From positions 1,778,874-1,842,873 of the forward strand of contig NC_013501.1 in the NCBI RefSeq assembly GCF_000024845.1: a stretch of 64,000 nucleotides of DNA, in the 5' to 3' direction. Source of the stretch: Rhodothermus marinus DSM 4252 (lineage in GTDB: Bacteria; Bacteroidota; Rhodothermia; Rhodothermales; Rhodothermaceae). How positions within the stretch are numbered: position 1 is the stretch's first letter; each line of letters starts with the position of its first letter. Below, one piece after another: positions 8,549 to 63,204 of the stretch. Position numbers and translations under genes: made by a program. The notes under the pieces were generated by a model. That model was given only the letters and a program-made list of their open reading frames with translations, ran no database searches and was not told the origin of the DNA.

Positions 8549-9079
8549 ATGACTTCCATCGATCAACAACTGGAAGCATTACTTGCCGAAGGGCGTCAGC
8601 GTCTGTTGCAATACATTCAACACAAAGTATCCGATCCACAGGGGGCCGAAGATATCCTGCAAAACAGCCTGCTCAAGGCATTGCAGGCGGCACCAGGCCT
8701 CCGAAGCCGAGAAAAACTGGTGCCGTGGTTTTACCGCATTGTGCAGCATGCTATTGTGGATGCGCAGCGCCAACGCGCCCGCGAACAGCGTATCCATCAG
8801 GCCTATATGGCTGAACAGGAAGCAATCCCCCACGAAGATGCCACCCTGATTTGCGAGTGCTTTCGTGCGCTGCTTCCGTCCCTGAAAGAAGCGTACCGTT
8901 TGCTTATTGAGAAAATAGATCTTGAGGGTGAGGATCCCCGGGAGGTGGCGCAGCAACTGGGTATCACCCGCAACAACCTGCACGTGCGGCTTCACAGAGC
9001 ACGGCGTCAGCTGCGGGAGCGTCTGGAAGCGCTCTGCACGGCATGCACCACGCCGGATCATTCAGATTGTCGGTGCTGA
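8549..9079 (+). CDS. ECF-type RNA polymerase sigma factor with Cys/His-rich C-terminal tail
   Basis: A 176-aa sigma-70 family protein. Region 2 is at about residues 15-80 (AEDILQNSLLKALQ, WFYRIVQHAIVDAQR) and region 4 at about 105-160 (REVAQQLGITRNNLHVRLHRARRQLRE). The last 14 residues carry C163, C166, H171, C174 and C176, a likely metal-binding tail. No anti-sigma gene is adjacent. The tail could sense metal directly, as the Cys-rich tail of the CorE sigma factors does. It probably activates the adjoining ATPase gene; this is inferred from position. Confidence 0.88.
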   Translation: MTSIDQQLEALLAEGRQRLLQYIQHKVSDPQGAEDILQNSLLKALQAAPGLRSREKLVPWFYRIVQHAIVDAQRQRAREQRIHQAYMAEQEAIPHEDATLICECFRALLPSLKEAYRLLIEKIDLEGEDPREVAQQLGITRNNLHVRLHRARRQLRERLEALCTACTTPDHSDCRC

Positions 9080-60333: not shown

Positions 60334-60606
60334 TCACACCTGGCGCTGCACCAGCCCCTCCTGCTCCAGCTCCTCCAGAAACGCCCGCACCTGACGCTCG
60401 GCCTCCTCCTGCGTCACCTCGTAGTGGTCCAGCAACGCCGCCACCAGCGCTTCGATCGTCCGGCGACCGGCTTCCAGCTGCTCCCAGATGAATACGCCCG
60501 TCGCGTTCAGCGTGTAGTACGATTTGGTCTCCAGGTGCAGCAGCACCCCTTCGCCTTCGTCGAACCGCGTGAAGTTCACGCGCGGATCCGGCTCGTAGCG
60601 TGCCAT
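60334..60606 (-). CDS. PqqD-family peptide-binding protein (RRE-like)
   Basis: A 90-aa PqqD homologue (VNFTRFDEGEGVLLHLETKSYYTLNATGVFIWEQLEAG, then VTQEEAERQVRAFLEELEQEGL). PqqD-like RRE proteins hold leader peptides for modification enzymes. It is the last gene of a four-gene run, 3 bp after an HprK-like kinase gene. This pairing matches the HPr-rel-A type systems described by family-building work; no precursor was found. Confidence 0.9.
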   Translation of the reverse strand: MARYEPDPRVNFTRFDEGEGVLLHLETKSYYTLNATGVFIWEQLEAGRRTIEALVAALLDHYEVTQEEAERQVRAFLEELEQEGLVQRQV

Positions 60607-60609
60607 GCC

Positions 60610-61590
60610 TTACGCACTGGTCTGGTGAACCGATACCGATGATTCCGGGAAGGCGGCCGCCAGCATTTGCTCCAGCCGCCCGGGCCGATCGAGCAGGTCC
60701 GGACCGGCCTCCAGCAGGTAAGCCGGTGCCTGGCAGACCAACCGCCCCATCACGTCAAGCAAACGGCGTTCCGCGGGATCATCCGCGCGCCCGAGCAGCA
60801 GACTGGCCTGCACCAGTCGCCCGAAGGCCTCGCTGCGCCGAAGCGGCACCAGCCGACTTTCCGGAATATCGGCAAGTTCTGGAAAAATCAACAGCACCGG
60901 ACGACACCGCGGCTGAAACCGCCCGGGATGCAGCCGGTCCATCCGCACGCGCAACTTCGCCGGATCGGTGGGTTGCCGATCCGGACAGACGGCTACCTCG
61001 GGAAAATAGCGCACGCTTTCCGGATCGAGCCCGAAATCCTCCCGAAAGGAAACCGCCACAATGTCCTCCCCGCTTCGATGCACCAGCACGGCGTCGTCGG
61101 TCAGATAGGACCACCCACGCCGGACCAGGCTGTAGGTCAGCGTCGATTTGCCCGAATCGCTGCGCCCCACCAGCAGCACGCCCTTGCCCCGCCAGACCAG
61201 CCCGGCCGCATGCAGACCGAACCATCCCTTTTCGCGCAATAACAGACTCAAGACCAGCACCAGCCCGAAGGTAAACGCGGGCAACTTTTCCGTACCGGGC
61301 GGAACGTAGCCCTGCAGCGTTGCACCCCGCGCCTCGAAAGCCACCGGCCCGTACCGGAGCCACCAGCCCGACGCCTCCGCCAGCAGGCGACAGGAAGCCG
61401 TCTCGAACACGACGGGCCAGGCCGGATCGTCACGGGTCGCCGAAAAAAGGCGAAGCGTCCAGTCCGGGGTGGCGTTCTGCTGTCCGGGCCTGAAGCGATG
61501 GTAGCGCAGCACCCGATCGGCCTGCTGCAGTGCGGGAAGCCCACCCTCCAGCAGCAGAACGAATCGCTCGAAACTGTAAATCGTCTTCAT
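60610..61590 (-). CDS. HprK-related kinase (HPr-rel-A type)
   Basis: A 326-aa protein whose C-terminal half is HprK-like: Walker A VGRSDSGKST (142-150 core GRSDSGKST), LHAAG upstream (H127), and LTDDAVLVHR (D165, D166). The N-terminal half is a non-HPr domain. Related kinases phosphorylate Ser of peptides or proteins rather than HPr, as in lasso-peptide tailoring. It overlaps the B2-type gene by 4 bp and precedes the PqqD gene. Confidence 0.85.
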   Translation of the reverse strand: MKTIYSFERFVLLLEGGLPALQQADRVLRYHRFRPGQQNATPDWTLRLFSATRDDPAWPVVFETASCRLLAEASGWWLRYGPVAFEARGATLQGYVPPGTEKLPAFTFGLVLVLSLLLREKGWFGLHAAGLVWRGKGVLLVGRSDSGKSTLTYSLVRRGWSYLTDDAVLVHRSGEDIVAVSFREDFGLDPESVRYFPEVAVCPDRQPTDPAKLRVRMDRLHPGRFQPRCRPVLLIFPELADIPESRLVPLRRSEAFGRLVQASLLLGRADDPAERRLLDVMGRLVCQAPAYLLEAGPDLLDRPGRLEQMLAAAFPESSVSVHQTSA

Positions 61591-62129
61591 GCGCGGTGCC
61601 CGTCAGGTGGGTGCGTGTAGGTAATGGCAAATTGCTGCCGCGGATCGACGGCTTCGGCCACCGGCCGTCCTTCCCACTCCACCCAGGCGTGTCCCCGCAG
61701 CTGGCCGTTTTCGCGCGCCACACCAAAGCGGATGCAGACAGGCATTCCGGCCCGTCGGTAGAAGTGATACAGCAGCAACGCCTGCTTCATGCAGAAGTCG
61801 CGCCCGTAAAGCCGTCGGAGCACCGCCAGCGTCAGGCGTTCGACGCGCCGGAGTTCATCTTCCCCGAGGGGCGCGTCCTCCGGATCGGGTTCAAACAGCG
61901 CCAGCAGGGCCGGCAGCGGAAGGCGTCGTTGATTTCGTTCGACCCGGACGATCAGCCGAAAAATCTGTCGGAGCCACCGCAGATCGCCTCGCCGCCATTT
62001 GCGCCAGACGCGATGCCGCCAGCTCAACCGGAGCAGCCGTCGGAGCGAAGGCGGCTGTACCATGTCGGGCGTGGCGGGTGCCTGCTGCACACGTCCCTGA
62101 TGCTGCACTTTACGCAAACGGGTCAGCAT
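61587..62129 (-). CDS. Lasso peptide biosynthesis B2-type transglutaminase-like protease
   Basis: A 180-aa protein with a papain/transglutaminase-like triad: C113 in GRDFCMKQALLLYHF, H147 in RGHAWVEW and D162 in EAVDPRQQF. B2 proteins cut the leader of lasso peptides with help from a PqqD-like B1. Here the PqqD, kinase and B2 genes share one operon but no asparagine-synthetase-like cyclase is present, so a different product is likely. The start may instead be the ATG at 62063. Confidence 0.85.
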   Translation of the reverse strand: MLTRLRKVQHQGRVQQAPATPDMVQPPSLRRLLRLSWRHRVWRKWRRGDLRWLRQIFRLIVRVERNQRRLPLPALLALFEPDPEDAPLGEDELRRVERLTLAVLRRLYGRDFCMKQALLLYHFYRRAGMPVCIRFGVARENGQLRGHAWVEWEGRPVAEAVDPRQQFAITYTHPPDGHRA

Positions 62130-62136
62130 ACGTCCC

Positions 62137-63204
62137 TCAATGTTGAATGCCCAGCAGCGGGCGCGTCGTGTAAAAAAGTGGCGTCAGCAGCAGGTAGCGC
62201 AGCCGCGCGGCCGGGTGCTCCCGGCACTGCACGTGGAAAGCAAAGCGTTGCCAGAAAGATCGCCAGGCGTCCGGGTGTCCGATTCCGTCCAGAACGCGCC
62301 GGGCCAGTCGTTCCACGCGCCGGTCCTGCCGAACGATCCGGAGCGTCTCCGTCGGCAACGCAACGCCCAGCCCCTCGTGCACCAGCCACAACCCCAGCCG
62401 TACCATACGCTGGCATTGCCACTGCCGGGCTACCCGCCAGACACGATCCCAGTCGAGCCCCGGAGCGTGCCGCAGCAAGCCGGCCACGTCGCCCATCCAC
62501 TTCAGGCTGCGCCACTGATGTTTGGCGCTGTGCAGGCAGAGCAGCGGCAGCAACGCTTCGACCGGGAGCGTCCGCACCGCCTGGCCCTCCAGGTCTACAT
62601 GCCGGGCCTCCGCCAGCAATACCCGTACATCCGGCTGGGGTGCAAAGCGCCAGGGTGCCGTGCCCGTGTGCAGATCGACCATCAGCAGACGGTCCGGCGT
62701 CCGGTATGGATGCTCGCGCTGCAACCGCAGGTACAGCCTGCGCACCATGCCCCGATGCGGCACGTCCCGATGGTACCCCAGTTCGAGCACCACCGCCTCG
62801 GCCCGTGCGAAGTCGGACGCGGCCACCAGCAGATCGATGTCGGATGCCGGACGCAATGCCGGATCGCCGTAGGCCATCCGTCCCAGCACGACCCCTTTGT
62901 AGAACAGGACGGGCACGCCGGCCGCTTCAAACGCTCGTTGCAGGCGCTGCACCTCCCGAACCTGCAGGCCGGCCTGTGCCACCGCCGCCAGATAATGCGG
63001 CCGCAGGGCCGCCAGCAGCACCTCGGGAACCTTCGCCGGGGAAGCCGCCTTCAGCGCCCGGTACAGCAGCGGTCCCACACCCTGCTGCACGGCCAGCCGG
63101 GCCACTTCGGCCGGATCCGCCAGACCTGCCGGCGCGGGCATCGGCGCGCCCTGCCAGTAGGCCCGCAGGCAGGCCTGAAGGTAGCATTGCGCCGCGTTGC
63201 TCAT
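62137..63204 (-). CDS. Nucleotidyltransferase-family protein of RiPP/EPS-associated type
   Basis: A 355-aa protein of the NTP_transf_5 kind, with the nucleotidyltransferase core LFYKGVVLGRMAYGDPALRPASDIDLLV (GR and SDID) and the long helical C-terminus with LCLHSAKHQWRSLKWMGDV. Such proteins accompany PqqD/HprK-like/B2 sets in several phyla, role unknown. It starts the operon, divergent from the Sua5/TsaC gene over 111 bp. Confidence 0.82.
   Translation of the reverse strand: MSNAAQCYLQACLRAYWQGAPMPAPAGLADPAEVARLAVQQGVGPLLYRALKAASPAKVPEVLLAALRPHYLAAVAQAGLQVREVQRLQRAFEAAGVPVLFYKGVVLGRMAYGDPALRPASDIDLLVAASDFARAEAVVLELGYHRDVPHRGMVRRLYLRLQREHPYRTPDRLLMVDLHTGTAPWRFAPQPDVRVLLAEARHVDLEGQAVRTLPVEALLPLLCLHSAKHQWRSLKWMGDVAGLLRHAPGLDWDRVWRVARQWQCQRMVRLGLWLVHEGLGVALPTETLRIVRQDRRVERLARRVLDGIGHPDAWRSFWQRFAFHVQCREHPAARLRYLLLTPLFYTTRPLLGIQH

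Follow-up and report, generated by a model that had tools for sequence, protein, structure and literature searches.

We analyzed a window of 64,000 nucleotides from Rhodothermus marinus DSM 4252 (G000:C1:1778874-1842873), in which contig C1 accounts for 3,261,604 of the 3,386,737 bases of the two-contig genome (completeness, 99.98). Genome-wide statements derive from profile searches of genomes. Four consecutive genes on the minus strand form a compact cassette. The first encodes a nucleotidyltransferase (NTase; 62137..63204, 355 aa) of the NTP_transf_5 family (PF14907; Pfam, 4e-57). It is followed by a B2-type leader peptidase (61587..62129, 180 aa) that matches Transglut_core3 (PF13471; 2e-20) and lasso_biosyn_B2 (NF033537; 76.9 bits, with a cut-off of 33). 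Next come an HprK-like peptide kinase, K1 (60610..61590, 326 aa), with an Hpr_kinase_C match just under the cut-off (1.4e-7), and PqqD1 (60334..60606, 90 aa), a PqqD-type discrete RRE (PqqD, 8.5e-24; PF05402, 84 bits) that scores under the cut-offs of both lasso-specific PqqD models (NF033536 and NF033530). The NTase and B2 genes are separated by a 7-bp gap, the B2 and kinase genes overlap by 4 bp, and the kinase and PqqD1 genes are separated by a 3-bp gap. The first-pass annotation had these positions and spacings exactly right, and its reading of the cassette as RiPP parts is borne out by Pfam or NCBIfam matches for the RRE, B2, kinase, and NTase. The four genes are genuine and intact, and their dN/dS of 0.08 to 0.32 between Rhodothermus species shows that purifying selection acts on them.

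As that annotation had also noted, neither a cyclase nor a precursor adjoins the cassette. In none of the Rhodothermus genomes did the surroundings of the cassette yield a convincing leader peptide, and the cassette contains no transporter. Neither a SipW-like signal peptidase nor an MsbA-like transporter is present in its neighborhood, where the B2 peptidase stands instead. In line with the claim that the product and role of the set are undescribed, we did not find this arrangement described in the open-licence literature searched.

The catalytic residues of the kinase and the carboxylates of the NTase are retained. In K1, which had been called a Ser-kinase-like enzyme with a Walker A motif, the P-loop (GKST) is indeed intact, and the His-Lys-Asp-Asp residues (H127, K148, D165, and D166; residues as in PMC9266682 and PMC10368454) are invariant in the alignment. 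By these residues, K1 resembles lasso precursor kinases of the PadeK/ThcoK/BsfK type. The claim of an intact C-H-D triad in B2 held only in part: Cys113 and His147 are invariant among the 32 aligned B2 proteins, but the acid is variable, since D162 is replaced by Asn in one Rhodothermus genome (G046); E159 is kept in all Rhodothermus. A structure search with B2 returned weak papain- or transglutaminase-like matches (best E, 0.075), and no sequence relatives of B2 or the NTase were found in the PDB. The NTase has a Pol-beta-like fold with a conserved D122-x-D124 and an acid at position 177; the best PDB matches of its AlphaFold model (pLDDT, 83) were MenT1, ANT(2''), and, more weakly, FKRP. The nearest solved relative of PqqD1 is the lasso RRE TbiB1.

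Searches of the genome with both PF13471 and NF033537 detected a single B2, that of the cassette. A lasso locus (L024) lies 738 kb away at C1:1,098-1,105 kb and has no B2. It contains a cyclase (NF033535; 838 bits, with a cut-off of 525), a second HprK-like kinase (K2), a second PqqD (PqqD2), an ABC transporter, two rhodolasso precursors matching NF033534 (L024:8586-8735 and 8790-8945, or about 1,101.6-1,101.9 kb of C1), and a third leader peptide, A3 (L024:9114-9332; orthologues in L059, L060, L061, L063, and L065). The rhodolasso leader is of the WxxP type. The cyclase and precursors are conserved in all Rhodothermus species, and the cyclase evolves under constraint (dN/dS, 0.12 to 0.28). 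Of the papers in the open-licence literature that mention both Rhodothermus and a lasso peptide, none has a title concerned with lasso peptides of Rhodothermus.

With the core set by the T(-2)/-17 rule, rhodolasso cores lack Asp or Glu at positions 7 to 9, so any ring would be unusual. The same cores have conserved acids at positions 13 and 15 (alternating between D and E), two Cys residues, and a C-terminal LSDCR. The A3 core is rich in Gly, His, Pro, and Trp, likewise lacks Asp or Glu at positions 7 to 9, and ends in LSG[LP]; A3 has no NF033534 match.

The split between a cyclase locus and a single over-cut-off B2, always located in the cassette, was found in all seven Rhodothermus genomes; in G151 the two loci share a contig, with about 161 kb between them. 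Elsewhere in the order, by our reading, every over-cut-off cyclase is accompanied by a B2 no more than about 13 kb away (13 genomes, contigs permitting).

To place the cassette enzymes, we used maximum-likelihood trees of 30 to 36 proteins each, in which the lasso-cluster enzymes were those of the same order. The Rhodothermus B2 grouped with the cyclase-free B2s of five other genomes (G026, G404, G428, G429, and G441) and with an orphan from Roseithermus (98/99). K1 fell with cyclase-free kinases (100/99), and K2 with lasso kinases; neither the cassette B2 nor its kinase grouped with the lasso-cluster enzymes of the order. Rhodothermus PqqD1 lay outside the lasso RRE group (93/93), a weaker placement with long branches, and the NTase tree did not resolve cyclase-free from lasso grouping. 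Given the cyclase-free affinity of B2 and K1, these trees indicate that the cassette is a distinct cyclase-free type coexisting with lasso clusters and not a piece broken off one of them. On the same grounds, we rejected a detached lasso fragment as the whole story.

Short ORFs beside cyclase-free cassettes encode a leader of the form [FY]xPPx[LIV]xxxGx[LV]xxx[TA]G exactly 17 residues ahead of the predicted core, which is the spacing of lasso precursors. The first-pass annotation had proposed searching the genome for short genes with conserved leaders, and such a profile search yielded one distant candidate ORF in R. marinus. The profile was blind, being built from four peptides of which none came from Rhodothermus. 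Its best R. marinus match had an E value of 4.4e-5 (next match, 0.80), and orthologous ORFs were its best matches in G003, G394, G395, and G054 (E, 0.01 to 0.05). The candidate precursor (G000:C1:1106904-1107059, minus strand; 51 aa) is an ORF call with six orthologues. Its leader carries FEPPRL, its predicted core is GSFNFS, and the peptide reads FEPPRLKYQGRLTEQTG; no signal sequence is evident. The orthologue in G151 is divergent, with the core GSFDFS. Over six species the core reads G-x-F-x-F-S with an invariant terminal Ser, and other peptide subgroups have a single invariant core Ser (S1 or S4).

A profile of six peptides matched 11 of the 114 genomes of the order (E<1e-4), 10 of which are among the 13 genomes with a cassette-type B2 (hypergeometric, 4.5e-11; this value is inflated, as six positives supplied the training peptides and the genomes are related). 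Among the positives outside the training set are G441 and a second copy each from G404, G428, and G429. The first-pass annotation had named as a refuting case a cyclase and a lasso precursor encoded at another site of the genome. Both are present at L024; the idea of a separate system without a cyclase still stands, in modified form, since the cassette groups with cyclase-free cassettes in the trees and has a candidate precursor of its own elsewhere.

Only 24 bp separate the candidate precursor gene from the gene before it, which encodes a secreted beta-helix-like protein ending in a T9SS-type sorting tail. With TIGR04183, the R. marinus tail falls slightly short of the cut-off (20.4 versus 23), and the tails in G151 and the other peptide-upstream loci scanned score above it. 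In 9 of 10 independent loci with a visible neighbor, the gene directly ahead of the peptide gene encodes a T9SS type A sorting tail, against a background rate of 3.6% for such genes; excluding the five loci that lay behind the tail model, the pattern remains in 5 of 6 (binomial, 3.7e-7). The neighborhood pattern is strong and unexplained. We tentatively raise the possibility that Rhodothermales have a new class of linear RiPPs, in which dispersed [FY]xPP precursors, mostly behind genes for T9SS-sorted surface proteins, serve in trans as substrates of a single RRE-kinase-B2(-NTase) cassette, and the decorated peptides join or assist the surface display of the cargo. The open-licence literature contained no paper that we could find joining type IX secretion and a lasso peptide. 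At L175, L177, L163, L176, L134, and L132, leader-like [FY]xPP peptides lie just 3' of T9SS-tail genes, and several of these T9SS-tail genes share NAWINEFHYDN N termini.

Decay of the cassette in relatives, which had also been proposed as counterevidence, was seen in two Rhodothermus species for the kinase and NTase, but PqqD1 and B2 persist in all seven genomes. In G046, K1 is missing between B2 and PqqD1 and the NTase is reduced to several low-identity fragments (L030:8691-9592). The retained genes are constrained relative to the window copy (dN/dS, 0.08 for PqqD1 and 0.13 for B2) and occur beside an intact lasso locus; a profile search of this genome did not detect the candidate precursor. 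G151 lacks both K1 and the cassette NTase and still has the peptide. This led us to drop the rule that the peptide occurs if and only if K1 and the NTase do: either both enzymes are not essential to the peptide or K2 substitutes. The comparison genomes include fragmented MAGs, and Roseithermus sacchariphilus (G175) offers a complete chromosome. Its lasso locus (L078; see also L033 and L070) has a PqqD, cyclase, precursor, kinase, transporter, and NTase without a B2, and its only detected B2 is a lone cassette-type gene about 1.7 Mb away. G046, with constrained PqqD1 and B2 and no detected peptide, and Roseithermus, with its orphan B2, are the best evidence that the cassette B2 may serve the lasso pathway. 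A contig scan with the B2 alignment found four loci only, two of them in Rhodothermus.

We lean, by a little, toward the view that the cassette supplies the enzymes of a RiPP pathway that is related to lasso pathways but has no cyclase and acts on a distant precursor, with its B2 also serving the lasso locus. From the gene content, the sole B2, the tree grouping, the leader family, and the selection on the genes, we infer the following substrate, chemistry, step order, and action of B2 in trans. The unlinked 51-aa ORF would be the most likely substrate in Rhodothermus. PqqD1 would grip the [FY]xPPx[LV] leader, and K1 would phosphorylate the conserved Ser of the short core. PadeK modifies a C-terminal Ser (PMC9266682), and by analogy the C-terminal Ser may be the K1 site; for BsfK and the LPP kinase, the site is Ser3 of the core. 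The NTase-fold enzyme may then extend the phosphate, as PsmN appears to do, being reported to add hexoses (PMC9266682). B2, together with the RRE, would cut after the leader (T at position -2) and release a linear modified peptide, with no cyclase step. PadeB1 and PadeB2 suffice for leader cleavage without a cyclase (PMC5067487). As the cassette holds the only detected B2 and the cyclase locus has none of its own, this B2 would also remove the leaders of rhodolasso precursors made 738 kb away, unless a peptidase of another family could serve that locus.

Another reading, which we regard as rather unlikely, is that the cassette only serves the rhodolasso and A3 precursors in trans, supplying B2 and an extra RRE, kinase, and NTase, with the FEPP peptide being incidental. 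It would account for a sole B2 that always accompanies a cyclase (7/7 genomes) and for the retention of PqqD1 and B2 where K1 and the NTase are lost. Moreover, the conserved LS motifs at the ends of the lasso precursors are possible kinase sites, and known lasso clusters contain the same tailoring enzymes (PMC10368454, PMC9266682). It fits poorly, however, with the position of B2 and K1 in the cyclase-free clade, with a lasso locus that already has its own RRE and kinase, and with a specific leader peptide that tracks the cassette type across the order. The opposite view, that the cassette is a separate linear-phosphopeptide system and nothing more and that rhodolasso is cut by another protease or is nonfunctional, seems improbable to us. 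Conservation of the cyclase and its precursors, with the cyclase constrained in every species, speaks against it, as do the survival of the cassette-type B2 beyond most or all of the cassette in G046 and Roseithermus and the proximity of B2 to the cyclase elsewhere in the order. The tree placement and the leader-peptide family are nevertheless what this view predicts, and rhodolasso cores without Asp or Glu at positions 7 to 9 would give an odd product anyway.

The first-pass annotation had seen a resemblance to HPr-rel-A systems, which likewise combine an HprK-like kinase with a PqqD-like protein. This did not hold up: the kinase scores 45.1 for TIGR04352 (cut-off, 200) and PqqD1 scores 31.7 for TIGR04353 (cut-off, 35), and we rejected the identity on these scores. 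The HprK-like fold and these weak similarities are what would suggest an HPr-rel-A-type or other non-RiPP signaling or glycan system, with the kinase acting on HPr or another protein. B2 scores at twice the lasso cut-off, B2 and the NTase fit lasso tailoring better, and related cassettes adjoin leader peptides, making such a system highly improbable in our view. PqqD1 was likewise rejected as a PQQ PqqD (TIGR03859, 27.6; cut-off, 46).

Closest in logic to the cassette are the LPPs of Bacillota, peptides that stay linear and phosphorylated (PMC13381572, 2026). Both systems have a discrete RRE, an HprK-like kinase, and an NTP transferase without a macrolactam cyclase; the LPP leader contains a comparable [Y/W]xxP motif, and LPP genomes often also make lasso peptides (PMC13381572), just as a lasso locus accompanies the cassette here. 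LPP systems rely on a signal-peptidase-like protease of archaeal type together with an MsbA-like transporter, whereas the cassette has a B2 cysteine peptidase of the lasso type and lacks a transporter. The LPP motif is YxxPxVLxHQxIxFETxxS, and the candidate family ([FY]xPPx[LV]xxxGxL) lacks HQxIxFET; here, unlike in LPP systems, precursors are scattered behind T9SS cargo genes. The cassette suggests that leader peptidases of the lasso type also work where no cyclase takes part, so that linear tailored peptides would arise outside Bacillota through a protease unlike that of LPPs. It also points toward a link, so far unexplored, between RiPPs and the cargo of type IX secretion.

The paeninodin, pseudomycoidin, and Bsf lasso clusters also combine an RRE, B2, HprK-like kinase, and NTase, with the -17 leader spacing and T at -2 (PMC9266682, PMC10368454). 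They have a cyclase and a precursor, and the cassette has neither; the clade split described above is with the lasso enzymes of its own order only. The NF033535 (rhodolasso) locus shares the organism and would have to share the only detected B2, but unlike the cassette it has a WxxP leader and its own RRE, kinase, cyclase, and transporter. One B2 possibly acting on two leader types (W-type and F/Y-type) would be a natural example that bears on how RREs separate pathways. The arrangement is also a worked case in which precursors and enzymes come from distant loci, a layout that escapes genome mining based on gene clusters. With cores as short as GSFNFS, each proposed step is testable in E. coli.

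Two other cassettes combine a kinase, NTase, PqqD, and B2 with an adjacent precursor whose core begins AEYGGLD and no cyclase nearby (L040:3844-6973 in G131 and L036:9065-12556 in G179). These resemble close parallels, but we set them apart, as both B2s group with the lasso clade and the cores might cyclize, with a possible 7-residue ring; a cyclase was undetected in G131, and only a distant homologue was found in G179. A different layout occurs at L120 and L112 (G422 and G421), where B2 is on the strand opposite PqqD and the kinase and a weaker cyclase homologue is nearby.
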